From positions 1-40,883 of the forward strand of contig CAJVWI010000018.1 of NCBI GenBank assembly GCA_913009655.1: a stretch of 40,883 bases of DNA. The letters run 5' to 3'. Positions 2,217-35,537 of the stretch are shown here, piece after piece. How positions within the stretch are numbered: position 1 is the first letter of the stretch; each line of letters starts with the position of its first letter. A model generated the notes under the pieces. That model had not been told where the DNA came from. It saw only the letters and a program-made list of their open reading frames with translations, and made no database searches. The stretch is from an uncultured Cryomorphaceae bacterium (GTDB lineage Bacteria; Bacteroidota; Bacteroidia; Flavobacteriales; Schleiferiaceae). The translations under genes and the position numbers were made by a program.

Positions 2217-2468
2217 TTATTCAGCTACCTCTTCAGTAGCTTCTTCAGTTGCCTCCATGGTAGCTTCTTCAGTTGCCTCTTCAGTTGCCTCTTCAGTAGC
2301 TTCTTCAGTTGTCTCCATGGTAGCTTCTTCAGCTACCTCTTCAGTTACCTCTTCAGTTACCTCTTCAGTTACCTCTTCAGTTACCTCCATAGTTGCTTCT
2401 TCAGCATTGTTGCATGCAACAAAGGCAACCATTGCCAATGCGCTTAAAAATAAACTTACTTTTTTCAT
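2217..2468 (-). CDS. Small lipoprotein with acidic tetrapeptide tandem repeats
   Basis: Predicted 83-residue secreted lipoprotein of unknown function. I chose the ATG at 2466-2468 because it gives a clean signal peptide, MKKVSLFLSALAMVAFVAC, with the lipobox cysteine at residue 19, and because a promoter lies 34 bp upstream; a longer open frame to 2543 would run through that promoter. After CNNA the whole mature part is 15 tetrapeptides of the form EEVT/EEAT, with M replacing the first E in three of them, so it is strongly acidic and without predicted fold. The repeat is also a 12-bp DNA tandem repeat. It lies 77 bp downstream of glycyl-tRNA synthetase but has its own promoter. I recognise no domain. 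Confidence 0.7.
   Translation of the reverse strand: MKKVSLFLSALAMVAFVACNNAEEATMEVTEEVTEEVTEEVTEEVAEEATMETTEEATEEATEEATEEATMEATEEATEEVAE
2223..2402 (-). repeat. 12-bp tandem repeat (15 units) inside the lipoprotein gene
   Basis: Fifteen imperfect 12-bp units (on the plus strand mostly TCTTCAGTTACC or TCTTCAGTAGCT variants) encode tetrapeptides EEVT, EEAT, MEVT, METT or MEAT. The unit is a multiple of three, so gain or loss of copies would change length without a frameshift. Neighbouring units differ at few positions; three CCAT variants give methionine. Confidence 0.93.
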
Positions 2469-2501
2469 AATTCTTTGATTTATATTGTTTAAGGCTCTGC
2501 T

Positions 2502-2531
2502 CAAAGGTATGAAAATATGAACTTTAGACAA
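2502..2531 (-). promoter_or_regulatory. Bacteroidota promoter for the repeat lipoprotein
   Basis: On the minus strand TTG (2531-2529) is followed after exactly 19 bp by TACCTTTG (2509-2502). This matches the -33/-7 consensus TTG-N19-TAnnTTTG. The expected transcript would start near 2496, about 28 nt before the ATG at 2468. This is one of the two best promoter matches in the window. Confidence 0.72.
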
Positions 2532-2544
2532 GTGACTTATCAAT

Positions 2545-30520: not shown

Positions 30521-32869
30521 TTATTTGCCGTCTAGCTTGATACTGTAGGTTAGGAAGAAATTCCTTCCAGCCATGGGGAAAACAAAATTTTCGTCGGTTC
30601 GTGCTCCGCCAAATAGATACCCATATGTGTAGCCGTTAGGAGCGTAAGTTGCATCAAGCAAATTCATTACATCCAATCTGAAACTACCTAATTTAGAAGA
30701 TATAAGCCATTGAAAATCGATCGTTTGGTAAGGATTTAAGCTGCGGTTCTCATTTTCAGTATTATCCAGATATTGTCGACCAACGGATTTTGCGCGAAGC
30801 TGTAAATGGCCTTTTAAATCTTTATCGACTTTATAAGCCCATTGAATCATTCCATTTGAAATAAAGTCAGGAGACATTGCTATTTTACTATTATTGAAGG
30901 TTGTTTTTACTTCAGATCCGTCCATATAATCTATCAGAACTTCTTCGAATTCAGCAATTCTATTGTTGCTCAGAGTAGTATTAAATCCAACTATTAATTG
31001 ATCCGTTAATTTGCGCTCTCCCGCTAGCTCTAGACCTCTCCTGTAGCTTCTATTGACATTCATCCTTAAAGTTGCACCTACGTCATTTATTGCACCCGTT
31101 GGAACAAGCTGATTTAGGTACTCCATTAAATAAATATTCGCTTCAAAAAATCCATTTTTGCCTCGGGTTTGATAACCTACTTCAATATCAAGCACGCTTT
31201 CAGGCAACGCAGTATCTGAAATCCCATAATCTATAATGTCATTTCGAACAGGTTCGCGATTGGCAATTGCTGCCGACCAATATAGTCGACTATTTCCATT
31301 TATTTGGTAATCTAAACCTGCTTTTGGATTGAAAAAGAGATAACCATTTTCAAAATCAAGACCTGTTTGATCATCTCCAACTCCATTGATAATATAATTT
31401 ACAGACCGGAGCTGAAGATCTCCATAGGCCAACCAATTTTTTCCGAAAGGGATTTCCGCTTTAATATAACCAGTGTAATCAAATTTATCTCCAATGCTTT
31501 CATAGTATCGATAATCATTACCACTTTGGTAGATATAATTACTCACTCTATCTGTGGGCAAGTTAGCAGGTAAAACTCCAGGGAGTGGGTTTACCTGCAT
31601 CCAGGGAAGCGTGCCATAATGATCTCCCAAATACCGTTGTGAAAATCCACCCAAAACAAATTTGGCATCATTTATTTCTTTGACCAAAGAAGCGTGTGTC
31701 CCAATTAAAGAATTCGATAACCAACGTTGACGAACTAGGTCTGTACTTTGAATAGTACTATCGTTAATTACGGGATTTAACAGGCCATAATCTGGATATG
31801 ATTGATTCGTTTTAAATTGCTCGAAGTATCCTTTCCCGGCAACAAGGAAAGAATTAAAATTAAATCTCCAATTTTTTGGCAATCGGATTTTACCAATTAA
31901 ATGCGTGTGAGTCTGTTTATAGCGATCGATTTCATTGGGGTAACGATAGTAATTGTAAGTATTATTTCTTGAATCAATAAGATTCTGAGCATCTATTGAA
32001 TCTAAACCATTTCTGGAAATATAATTTTGTATTTGAGTAAAACTTCCAGGTCCCTCAGCATTGAATTTATCTTCAGGAATGCCATACCATGCCTGCTGCG
32101 TAAGTTCATTTCCACTAAAATGAACTAAACGAAAAATACTATTTTCTTTTTTATATTGTCCGCTTACTAGGTAGGAGTTTAGATTAACCGATGAGCGGTC
32201 TATAAACCCTTGGCTTTGTAAATGGGAGAGTCGACCCATAAATGTTAAAGGTTTAGTTTTTCCATTAGTTAGCCCTAATGCCCCAGAGTTAATTATGTAT
32301 GTTGCCCTTGCTCCTCCAAAAGAACCTCCTCCAAAAATGACTTTAGTGCTAGCTTTTTCTTCTGGGACTCCAACTTCCATTGAAATAGAACCTCCAAAAG
32401 CACCTGCGCCAACTGTAGAGGTTCCAACACCACGTTGAATTTGCAAAGATGAGATGGATGATGTTAGATCTGGAGTATTTACCCAAAAGACGCCATGTGA
32501 TTCCGGATCATTTATGGGCACACCGTTAATCGTGACATTTATTCTAGTTTGATCCATTCCTCGCATTCTAAGATAGGTGTAACCCATGCCTGTTCCAGCA
32601 TCAGAAGATTGTGTTATTGATGGTGTCCATTGAATCAAATATGGAATATCAAGTCCATTATTTAAATTTTCTAATGTATTCCCCCGTATTTCCATTGGTG
32701 AAGAGTTACTTGACAAATCAAGTACTGTCATCGGAGTTCTCTCGGATGCCCTCATTTCTAATAAGTTAACATCCGATAAAATGATTTTTTTCAATACTGT
32801 ATCAATTTCTTGCCCCTGGGAAATTGTCGCAATGGAAATGAAGAAAATGAAGAAAATGTTTTTTTTCAT
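30521..32869 (-). CDS. TonB-dependent receptor, TPP-riboswitch controlled (probable thiamine receptor)
   Basis: A 782-residue outer-membrane receptor. The signal peptide is MKKNIFFIFFISIATISQGQ; the plug domain (about 50-170) shows IPYLIQWTPSITQSSDAG, YLRMRGMDQTRINVTINGVP and GVGTSTVGAGAFGGSI; the barrel ends in AGRNFFLTYSIKLDGK. The upstream leader contains a TPP aptamer with its own promoter, so the receptor is expected to be repressed by thiamine pyrophosphate. The ligand is therefore probably thiamine, a thiamine phosphate or a precursor. It is the only gene after the riboswitch; no inner-membrane thiamine transporter gene accompanies it. Confidence 0.92.
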   Translation of the reverse strand: MKKNIFFIFFISIATISQGQEIDTVLKKIILSDVNLLEMRASERTPMTVLDLSSNSSPMEIRGNTLENLNNGLDIPYLIQWTPSITQSSDAGTGMGYTYLRMRGMDQTRINVTINGVPINDPESHGVFWVNTPDLTSSISSLQIQRGVGTSTVGAGAFGGSISMEVGVPEEKASTKVIFGGGSFGGARATYIINSGALGLTNGKTKPLTFMGRLSHLQSQGFIDRSSVNLNSYLVSGQYKKENSIFRLVHFSGNELTQQAWYGIPEDKFNAEGPGSFTQIQNYISRNGLDSIDAQNLIDSRNNTYNYYRYPNEIDRYKQTHTHLIGKIRLPKNWRFNFNSFLVAGKGYFEQFKTNQSYPDYGLLNPVINDSTIQSTDLVRQRWLSNSLIGTHASLVKEINDAKFVLGGFSQRYLGDHYGTLPWMQVNPLPGVLPANLPTDRVSNYIYQSGNDYRYYESIGDKFDYTGYIKAEIPFGKNWLAYGDLQLRSVNYIINGVGDDQTGLDFENGYLFFNPKAGLDYQINGNSRLYWSAAIANREPVRNDIIDYGISDTALPESVLDIEVGYQTRGKNGFFEANIYLMEYLNQLVPTGAINDVGATLRMNVNRSYRRGLELAGERKLTDQLIVGFNTTLSNNRIAEFEEVLIDYMDGSEVKTTFNNSKIAMSPDFISNGMIQWAYKVDKDLKGHLQLRAKSVGRQYLDNTENENRSLNPYQTIDFQWLISSKLGSFRLDVMNLLDATYAPNGYTYGYLFGGARTDENFVFPMAGRNFFLTYSIKLDGK

Positions 32870-33014: not shown

Positions 33015-33044
33015 CAAAGTTAGATCATAACATTTGATTTTCAA
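33015..33044 (-). promoter_or_regulatory. Bacteroidota promoter for the TPP riboswitch-receptor unit
   Basis: Minus-strand TTG (33044-33042), exactly 19 bp, then TAACTTTG (33022-33015). It overlaps the last codons of the fusion gene. Transcription would begin near 33009, a few bases before the aptamer, so the riboswitch can be expressed without the fusion gene. Confidence 0.75.
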
Positions 33045-34200
33045 TAGCAATTATTGCATTTTTCATGCGCGCTTCACCTTTGCCTTGAATATATTCAAAT
33101 GGAATATTCCTTGATCTTAAGGCTTGATCGTATAACTGGAAAATACGATTACGGTCAATGGGGTTTTCTCTTTGGGGGTCATGTACCCAAGGCAAATCTG
33201 GTCTACACAATAAATAAAGATGGGGTAAATTGTTTTTTAAAGAGATTTCAAAATCATCAACTTCTGCACTGAATTTATCAGTTGCCCATATAATTAATGT
33301 TAAAGCATCCGTATCAAAAAACACCAATGGGTCAGTGGTTTTTTTTTGAATTACCATTTGGGTATTATTGATACTTATTAGGTCAGTTAAATCATATTTA
33401 TCTTTTTTTAGCTCTAAATATTCACGTGCATATTCTGCTACGTGAGTTGCATTAAAGTGATCACTCAATAGTTTGGAAAGAGTTGTTTTACCGCAGGATT
33501 CTGGTCCAGTTAAAACAATTTTTAAAGTTTCCGGCTTTTCTACTGCCCAAACTAAAGCCTCTGTTGTTTTGTCTTCTTTTTTAATCAATCTCCAACCAAT
33601 ACTATATTTTCGACCATCAGTTATTGAAGCAATTCCTTTTCCATTTTCCGATTCGGCCACAAAATCCAGTATGATATCTTTTGATAGTGATAAACCTTTT
33701 TGTTTTGCCGCTTTATAAATTGATTCTTTTGCTCCCCAAGCAATTCTTCTTGCTAATTTGGGATTTTTAGATAGCTCAATTTTATCGATTTCTTTAATGG
33801 AAAGAAATTTTGCTGAAATATTCTCAAGTTGTATTCTTTCACTTTCCACATCAATACCTATTGGAAGGGTTGGGTGCCAGGCTGCAGCTGCAAAAATTTG
33901 ACTATGGCTTAGGCTAATTTCACCAGAATTAGATTTAAGTAGAGGGCGCTTACCCTCGTATGCGATATCTTTCGAAAGTTTATGATCAATTAGGCTTAAA
34001 GCCAGTCTTGCAGAAAGAAATTGATTTTTTTTCTTTTCACTTTTGAACTTCATTGATCTCTCAAGGTCTACTGGGGATAGGGATTTAACTTGATCAATTC
34101 TCTTTTCGTTTATCGGGATAAAAACGACATTCAAGCCAAAAAGTCCAAGTTTATTAACTTCGGCGGACATCATATGCTTAATTTTGTTTTCGATAATCAT
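33025..34200 (-). CDS. Fusion of 4'-phosphopantetheinyl transferase and NadR-like kinase
   Basis: A single 391-residue frame with two enzymes. Residues ~10-220 are an Sfp-type 4'-phosphopantetheinyl transferase: LSHS (97-100), GIDVES (115-120) with the metal-binding D117 and E119, and WGAKESIYK (155-163). These enzymes move phosphopantetheine from CoA to carrier proteins. Residues ~226-391 match the C-terminal kinase of NadR: P-loop TGPESCGKTT (231-240), EYAREYL (256-262), DTDAL (296-300) and CRPDLPWVHD. NadR kinases phosphorylate nicotinamide riboside; relatives near TPP riboswitches may phosphorylate thiamine. The start could be the ATG at 34200 or at 34173/34170. It is divergent from ahcY with at most 47 bp between. 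A sequencing frameshift joining two genes cannot be excluded, but the linker is short and both domains look complete. Confidence 0.85.
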   Translation of the reverse strand: MIIENKIKHMMSAEVNKLGLFGLNVVFIPINEKRIDQVKSLSPVDLERSMKFKSEKKKNQFLSARLALSLIDHKLSKDIAYEGKRPLLKSNSGEISLSHSQIFAAAAWHPTLPIGIDVESERIQLENISAKFLSIKEIDKIELSKNPKLARRIAWGAKESIYKAAKQKGLSLSKDIILDFVAESENGKGIASITDGRKYSIGWRLIKKEDKTTEALVWAVEKPETLKIVLTGPESCGKTTLSKLLSDHFNATHVAEYAREYLELKKDKYDLTDLISINNTQMVIQKKTTDPLVFFDTDALTLIIWATDKFSAEVDDFEISLKNNLPHLYLLCRPDLPWVHDPQRENPIDRNRIFQLYDQALRSRNIPFEYIQGKGEARMKNAIIAIENQML

Positions 34201-34217
34201 AATTCAAAGCAAAATTG

Positions 34218-35537
34218 ATGGAAAACTCACTAGAAAACAACTTCATTAAGAATAAAGTAAAAGATATTTCTTTGGCCCCTTGGGGACGAAGTGAGATACA
34301 CCTTGCGGAGGCGGAGATGCCAGGCCTCATGGCTTTAAGAGAAGAATATGGACAAAGCAAGCCTCTCAAGGGCGCTCGAATTGCGGGATGTCTTCACATG
34401 ACTATACAAACTGCCGTACTTATAGAAACATTAGTTGAATTAGGTGCTGAAGTAACCTGGTCCTCATGTAATATTTTTTCAACGCAAGATCATGCGGCAG
34501 CTGCTATAGCTGAATCTGGCGTGCAAGTCTATGCCTGGAAAGGGTTAAATGAAGAGGAGTTTGACTGGTGTATAGAACAAACATTATTTTTTGGAGAGGA
34601 TAGGAAGCCATTGAATATGATATTGGACGATGGTGGTGATCTAACAAATATGGTTTTAGATCGATATCCTCATTTAATAGAGGGTATTGGAGGGCTCTCT
34701 GAAGAAACGACCACAGGCGTTCATCGACTATTTGAGCGTATGATCAAGGGAACATTGCCAATGCCTGCAATCAATGTGAATGACTCTGTCACTAAGTCAA
34801 AGTTTGATAATAAATATGGTTGTCGCGAGTCTGCGGTAGACGCGATACGACGAGCCACAGATTTAATGATCGCTGGAAAAGTTGTTGTTTGTGCAGGTTA
34901 TGGAGATGTCGGAAAAGGTACCGCAGCATCTTTTCAGGCTTCAGGCGCCCGCGTCATTGTTTCTGAGGTTGACCCGATATGTGCACTCCAAGCCGTTATG
35001 GATGGATTTGAGGTTCGCAAAATCGATAATGTTATTAGCATGGCGAATATTGTCATCACTACCACTGGAAATAAAAACATCATTGTTGACCGGCACTTCT
35101 TGGCTTTAAGAGATAAGGCGATTGTCTGTAATATTGGCCATTTTGATAATGAAATTGATATGGCTTGGTTGAACTCTAATTATGGGGACTCGAAATTAGA
35201 AATAAAGCCTCAGGTTGATATGTATACAATTGGAGATAAAGAGATTATCGTTTTAGCGGAGGGTCGATTAGTCAATCTGGGATGCGCTACAGGGCATCCG
35301 AGTTTTGTAATGTCGAACTCGTTTACTAACCAGGTATTAGCTCAAATGGAATTATTTATGAATCCTGGAAAATATTCTAATGAAGTATTTACTTTGCCAA
35401 AACATTTGGATGAAAAAGTTGCTGAATTACACCTTTCATCTGTAGGAGCAGAACTAGACACCCTCTCTGAAGAGCAAGCAGATTATATTGGGGTAAAAGT
35501 TAAAGGACCTTTTAAGCCTGAAACTTATAGATATTAA
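34218..35537 (+). CDS. ahcY: Adenosylhomocysteinase
   Basis: NAD-dependent hydrolysis of S-adenosylhomocysteine to homocysteine and adenosine, relieving product inhibition of methyltransferases; 439 residues. Signatures include [36 protein letters not shown], the NAD loop [14 protein letters not shown] and GHFDNEIDM; the C-terminus [20 protein letters not shown] and terminal TYRY are typical. I start at ATG 34218; a TTG just before it is less likely. It converges on metK across a terminator. No SAH riboswitch fits in the short upstream gap. Confidence 0.97.

Follow-up and report, generated by a model that had tools for sequence, protein, structure and literature searches.

In E. coli, ThiK (YcfN) phosphorylates thiamine to thiamine monophosphate (ThMP), which ThiL then converts to TPP; PnuC is the classical importer of nicotinamide riboside (NR), and TPP closes the riboswitches of the TPP family. 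Thiamin regulons were reportedly the subject of a study by Rodionov in 2002. For Bacteroides, PMC5613172 reports thiamine transport by PnuT, in a pnuT-tnr3/OMthi system comprising a TPP riboswitch, a TonB-type outer-membrane transporter, an inner-membrane carrier of the PnuC type and an enzyme that phosphorylates thiamine. According to PMC7221760, kinases of the NadR type add a single phosphate, turning NR into NMN.

Here we analysed a window (the whole stretch of DNA, 40,883 nucleotides) in which one open reading frame joins an Sfp-type phosphopantetheinyl transferase (PPTase) to a NadR-like kinase, beside a TPP riboswitch and a TonB-dependent receptor. The PPTase half has in common with Sfp (1qr0/4mrt) the ACPS domain, the SH / GID-E / W--KE motifs and a length of ~220 aa, but it bears a C-terminal kinase and, as the only PPTase found, presumably serves the fatty-acid acyl carrier protein (ACP). 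The kinase half shares with the kinase domain of NadR (9x6f, 8x7f, 1lw7, 6gye) the P-loop, the EY-RE and DTD/DTN motifs and the lid D--R positions; it differs in having no NMN adenylyltransferase domain, in sitting in a thiamine-uptake-like cluster, and at a position after the DTD motif, where most aligned kinases have Trp (16 of 18) and NadR has Phe/Tyr. The locus resembles the E. coli route in that ThMP would be passed to ThiL, and departs from it in the fold of the kinase. All four elements of the Bacteroides system have counterparts here, but a NadR-like kinase together with ThiL would replace Tnr3/TPK, and the cluster also includes genes for PPTase, PcrB and a YkoF-like protein.

Neither a PPTase-kinase fusion nor a thiamine role for a NadR-like kinase was found in the literature searched, mostly without subscription papers and including the accessible parts of PMC6593275, PMC8552899, PMC12442306, PMC2258182 and PMC6281302; the original prediction likewise knew of no described enzyme with this pairing. 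Both domains are of known kinds; their pairing and the thiamine role appear new within that literature. We favour, with a probability of roughly two in three, a bifunctional protein that arose by a single fusion and combines the single PPTase detected in the genome with a thiamine-phosphorylating kinase, the two activities being independent. The domain pairing is kept under selection and tied to a gene that should be essential, and the cluster, which is conserved in many Flavobacteriales families, predicts an enzyme phosphorylating salvaged vitamin B1 in relatives without thiamine pyrophosphokinase (TPK); the kinase is a candidate for this missing vitamin-B1 enzyme.

One reading frame encodes a PPTase joined to a NadR-like kinase

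Below, G000 denotes the window's genome, g1 its genus, g12 a second genus with the fusion and g6 the sister genus. The features of the locus are listed in Table 1.

Table 1. Positions of the fused gene, its two halves and its neighbours in the window.
Feature	Positions	Strand	Basis
Fused PPTase-kinase ORF, 391 aa	33025-34200	-	Open frame from ATG to stop
Sfp-type PPTase half, aa 1-222	33535-34200	-	Pfam ACPS and profile matches
NadR-like kinase half, aa 223-391 and stop	33025-33534	-	Pfam AAA_28 and profile matches
TPP riboswitch aptamer, RF00059	32920-33010	-	56.3 bits against a gathering score of 54.3
TonB-dependent receptor, presumed thiamine receptor	30521-32869	-	Pfam Plug; first gene after the riboswitch
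ahcY, divergent neighbour marking the ancestral locus	34215-35537	+	Pfam AdoHcyase

The frame contains all the motifs originally quoted for it (LSHS, GIDVES, WGAKESIYK, TGPESCGKTT, EYAREYL and DTD), and the Pfam search that had been proposed placed both domains over their cut-offs: ACPS (PF01648) spans aa 113-209 with 35.1 bits against 25 (E 1.5e-8), and AAA_28 (PF13521) spans aa 227-378 with 94.5 bits against 27 (E 1.1e-26). The frame encodes one genuine protein that joins both domains.

Profile searches matched the PPTase half to the Sfp structures (E 8e-12) and the kinase half to the four NadR structures named above (E 4.5e-25 to 9.1e-18). Among 16 aligned homologues of the PPTase half, H99, D117, W155, K158, E159 and K163 are invariant and E119 is nearly so; together with the ACPS match, these His, Asp/Glu and KE motif residues mark an Sfp-type PPTase. 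The kinase half, compared with 18 aligned homologues, has invariant G232, E234, K238, E256, R259 and D296 (Walker A at ~232-240) as well as invariant lid residues D341/R344, and by its Pfam score, Walker A, DTD and lid residues it belongs, by sequence, with AAA_28/NadR-type kinases. Membership in NadR itself was not supported: the NCBIfam model nadR_NMN_Atrans (TIGR01526), an equivalog of NMN adenylyltransferase plus kinase, scored 63.5 bits against a cut-off of 341.15 and matched through the kinase part only.

At the domain junction, 15 aligned sequences run from ..ALVWAVEKP to kinase strand 1, LKIVLTG, with only a few residues in between, the spacer reaching ~10 residues in g12. A structure prediction of the fused protein, made from a two-sequence alignment only, was too poor to be informative (mean pLDDT 39.2).

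The fusion is shared by two genera and is under purifying selection

A search of related genomes for the same architecture recovered it in 19 g1 and two g12 genomes. Within g1, the locus was found in 19 of 22 genomes (the window's own included), with both domains in one frame in every case; 15 of these loci are complete, and four (G003, G007, G014, G015) are cut by a contig end yet span the junction. The three other g1 genomes (G004, G016, G019) yielded no PPTase and no ahcY, save a 26-aa ahcY fragment in G019, and these assemblies appear to lack the locus. The g12 fusions come from two of three genomes (G032, G046), G054 giving no match. A chance frame was rejected, as the same fused frame was present in 19/19 g1 loci found among the 22 genomes searched.

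By change counting, dN/dS was 0.10-0.26 in 12/12 pairs for the PPTase half and 0.09-0.27 in 10/12 pairs for the kinase half, dS being saturated in the other two, and both halves are under purifying selection. We accordingly give almost no credence to an assembly or frameshift artefact, or to a dead kinase half: the draft genomes are in many contigs and four of the 19 g1 loci are cut by contig ends, which speaks for an artefact, but the same frame was seen in 21/21 loci from 21 assemblies, while a dead kinase is at odds with catalytic residues invariant in 18 aligned sequences and with the dN/dS of that half. Separate genes at this locus, named at the outset as an observation that would speak against the fusion, were encountered only outside the two fused genera.

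Two other apparent fusions were rejected. A giant PPTase-kinase-AhcY ORF in G032 proved to be a long frame antisense to the fused gene, and in G043, G063 and G025, where long kinase frames (288-348 aa) suggested a PnuC-kinase fusion, pnuC lies in another, overlapping frame.

A TPP riboswitch and a receptor gene follow the fused gene

The kinase end was originally placed ~20 bp before a TPP riboswitch and receptor; the arrangement held, and the distance was corrected to 14 bases from the stop codon. The riboswitch scores over the gathering threshold of the RF00059 covariance model and has the CUGAGA and ACCCU segments. A match occupies the same place in 18/22 g1 genomes, but only those of G000 and G011 exceed the gathering score. 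In 14 of the other 38 genomes, a riboswitch match lies at most ~1 kb from the locus kinase or from the fused frame containing it, and in the remainder it lies elsewhere or was not found; in G024, a match sits directly before another pnuC. The position of the riboswitch between kinase and receptor suggests that it regulates the receptor rather than the fused gene.

On the other side of the locus, the fused gene and ahcY start divergently ~15 bp apart (window 34198-34220), and the promoters of both must therefore lie partly within coding sequence. Elsewhere in the window, 2217-2543(-) holds a short, secreted-looking ORF with Glu/Thr-rich repeats (EEATEE/EEVTEE).

The fusion probably arose once, by loss of intervening genes

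We read gene order in 69 + 17 loci. In 25 genomes outside g1, g6 and g12, ahcY adjoins a PPTase gene that shares its strand with a separate kinase gene, and PcrB (22 genomes), a YkoF-like gene (17) and PnuC (19) lie between PPTase and kinase; in 14 of the 25, a receptor match follows the kinase on its strand. Two arrangements named in the original prediction, ahcY next to a free-standing PPTase and a neighbourhood of PnuC, NadR-like kinase and receptor, were in this way recovered from other Flavobacteriales. Further genes also lie between PPTase and kinase in G038, G089, G104 and G131; in other loci the PPTase falls beyond the stretch or is inverted relative to the kinase (G031), and in G100 it was not found at the locus read.

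Gene families were checked on representatives, and two PcrB and four PnuC proteins (one of them sucC-linked) all scored over the cut-off. The ~90-aa cluster gene was over the cut-off of a YkoF-related family in four of seven representatives and under it in three, with a Thiamine_BP (PF01910) match below cut-off in five of the seven. Genes of the PcrB type and ~90-aa YkoF-like genes recur in the unfused cluster, as at L036:7386-8144 and L036:7117-7386.

In the sister genus g6, the PPTase is fused to a GNAT acetyltransferase and the kinase is the next gene in 7/7 loci (confirmed by Pfam on four), examples being L033:5830-7005, L034:6293-7525, L035:1602-2810 and L170-L173. A GNAT-like gene was also seen next to PcrB in the PPTase-kinase cluster of G038 and G036.

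The AhcY tree unites g1 and g12 with support of 99/99, g12 branching from within g1, and places g6 as their sister (97/95); the PPTase tree likewise joins g1 and g12 (SH-aLRT 99). In the tree of the short kinase half, g1 and g12 do not form one clade, four g1 rows including G000 standing apart on weak branches; in g12, the kinase half has diverged strongly (50-53 bits). Since g1 and g12 fall together in the AhcY tree, their fusions are most simply explained by one event. The fusion would thus probably have arisen once, in the g1/g12 ancestor, when the PcrB, YkoF-like and PnuC genes left the locus; the loss of genes in between, put forward from the window alone, fits both tree and gene order.

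For pnuC, departure from the locus probably meant relocation rather than loss, since a pnuC was found beside a sucC-like gene in g1, g6 and g12. This placement holds in 9/9 loci (seven g1, one g6 and one g12; Pfam on one), among them L121:7539-8126(-), L126 and L127.

Gene content favours thiamine as the substrate of the kinase half

The search of gene content covered TPK, ThiE, ThiC and ThiL in 60 genomes, 37 of them of the family. Matches to AAA_28 were classed by hand as locus-type from their neighbours, their match to the window protein and, for the loci read, BLAST. Across the sample, TPK was present in five genomes, ThiC in seven, ThiE over cut-off in eight (G024 having a ThiE-like match of 103 bits, under cut-off) and ThiL over cut-off in 53. 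A locus-type kinase occurs in 48 of the 60, and 46 of these 48 have no ThiE over cut-off, no TPK and no ThiC, 41 of the 46 having ThiL over cut-off; G005 (95% complete) and G103 (97% complete) carry the kinase without ThiL over cut-off. In G000, which is 89.8% complete, the combination expected of a thiamine-kinase genome was found, namely ThiL (312.2 bits) with no match to ThiE, ThiC or TPK.

The kinase is absent from 12 genomes, comprising eight outside the family, six of them with ThiE, and four of the family (G004, G016, G019, G036) in which a contig end truncates the locus (G036) or no locus was found. With these four left out and shared ancestry ignored, the pattern has a Fisher's p of 2e-5. 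The complementarity is imperfect, as G089 and G104, in which the kinase is fused to DUF4301, also have TPK, ThiC and ThiE. Because ThiL needs ThMP and ThiE is missing, phosphorylation of thiamine is the expected source of ThMP, and the most likely role of the kinase half is to convert imported thiamine to ThMP.

A different substrate has to be weighed, since the best solved relatives of the kinase half are NadR proteins with ribosylnicotinamide kinase domains, PnuC (PF04973), a family that Pfam names for NMN, is in the cluster, and the riboswitch, lying downstream, does not itself regulate the kinase. PnuC could then import NR for the kinase half to trap as NMN, and the proximity of the receptor would reflect gene order only. 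We consider this unlikely, though not negligibly so: the cluster repeatedly includes a TPP riboswitch, a TonB receptor and a YkoF-like gene, an NR kinase would leave ThiL without a visible source of substrate in the 46 of 48 genomes without ThiE over cut-off or TPK, and W305, after the DTD motif, is Trp in 16/18 aligned kinases but Phe/Tyr in the four NadR chains. Gene content thus favours thiamine over NR as the substrate.

Nor does the kinase half seem to replace TPK by making TPP directly, with ThiL incidental, which we regard as very unlikely. The search did miss TPK in all 37 family genomes, but 32 of the 37 have ThiL over cut-off, and a single phosphate is what NadR-type kinases move, as stated in PMC7221760.

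A second AAA_28 gene of the window's genome (G000:C11:14099-14584) was considered as the thiamine kinase and is not favoured, as BLAST puts it in another subgroup and genes like it are also present in G090 and G105, which have TPK. In G000 it adjoins genes for a RecQ-type helicase and a formyltransferase, with a similar setting, by eye, in G090; loci of this kind are L167:6064-6627(-) and L169:5458-6045(+).

For the favoured thiamine kinase, the following route can be proposed. The receptor and PnuC would import thiamine, as their families and the riboswitch suggest; the NadR-type kinase half would trap it as ThMP; ThiL, an equivalog match, would convert ThMP to TPP; and TPP would close the riboswitch that precedes the gene for the outer-membrane receptor.

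The PPTase half and its relation to the kinase

PF01648 was matched in 18/22 g1 genomes, always in the fused gene; the two matches in G007 are two contigs of one gene, and the G014 contig starts too late. No second PPTase was found by this PF01648 search of the 22 g1 genomes. Judged by its family, the PPTase half must activate ACP, so the fused gene should be essential. Acting separately from the kinase, this half would move phosphopantetheine from CoA to apo-ACP.

Almost no linker separates the two domains, the fusion is kept across two genera and the fused PPTase is the only one found, all of which might be expected if the halves were coupled, either by a kinase acting on a CoA- or ACP-related substrate or by the TPP/ATP state gating carrier-protein activation. 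One protein would then set both cofactor states in two genera. However, elsewhere the kinase is a gene of its own or joined to DUF4301, and the PPTase carries a GNAT domain; such varied partners suggest a chance joining of neighbours; we judge coupling improbable. We hold out similarly little expectation for the combined proposal that the NadR-like kinase is an unrecognised thiamine kinase of most Flavobacteriales and that its fusion to the PPTase couples TPP supply to ACP activation. Two independent activities on one chain are most likely.

The kinase-DUF4301 (PF14134) fusion was seen in G089, G131 and G104, from one other family, in a cluster with PnuC, at L128:6769-8886(+), L129:4539-6716(-) and L199 (Pfam on two, BLAST on the third), and offers a lead to the function of DUF4301.
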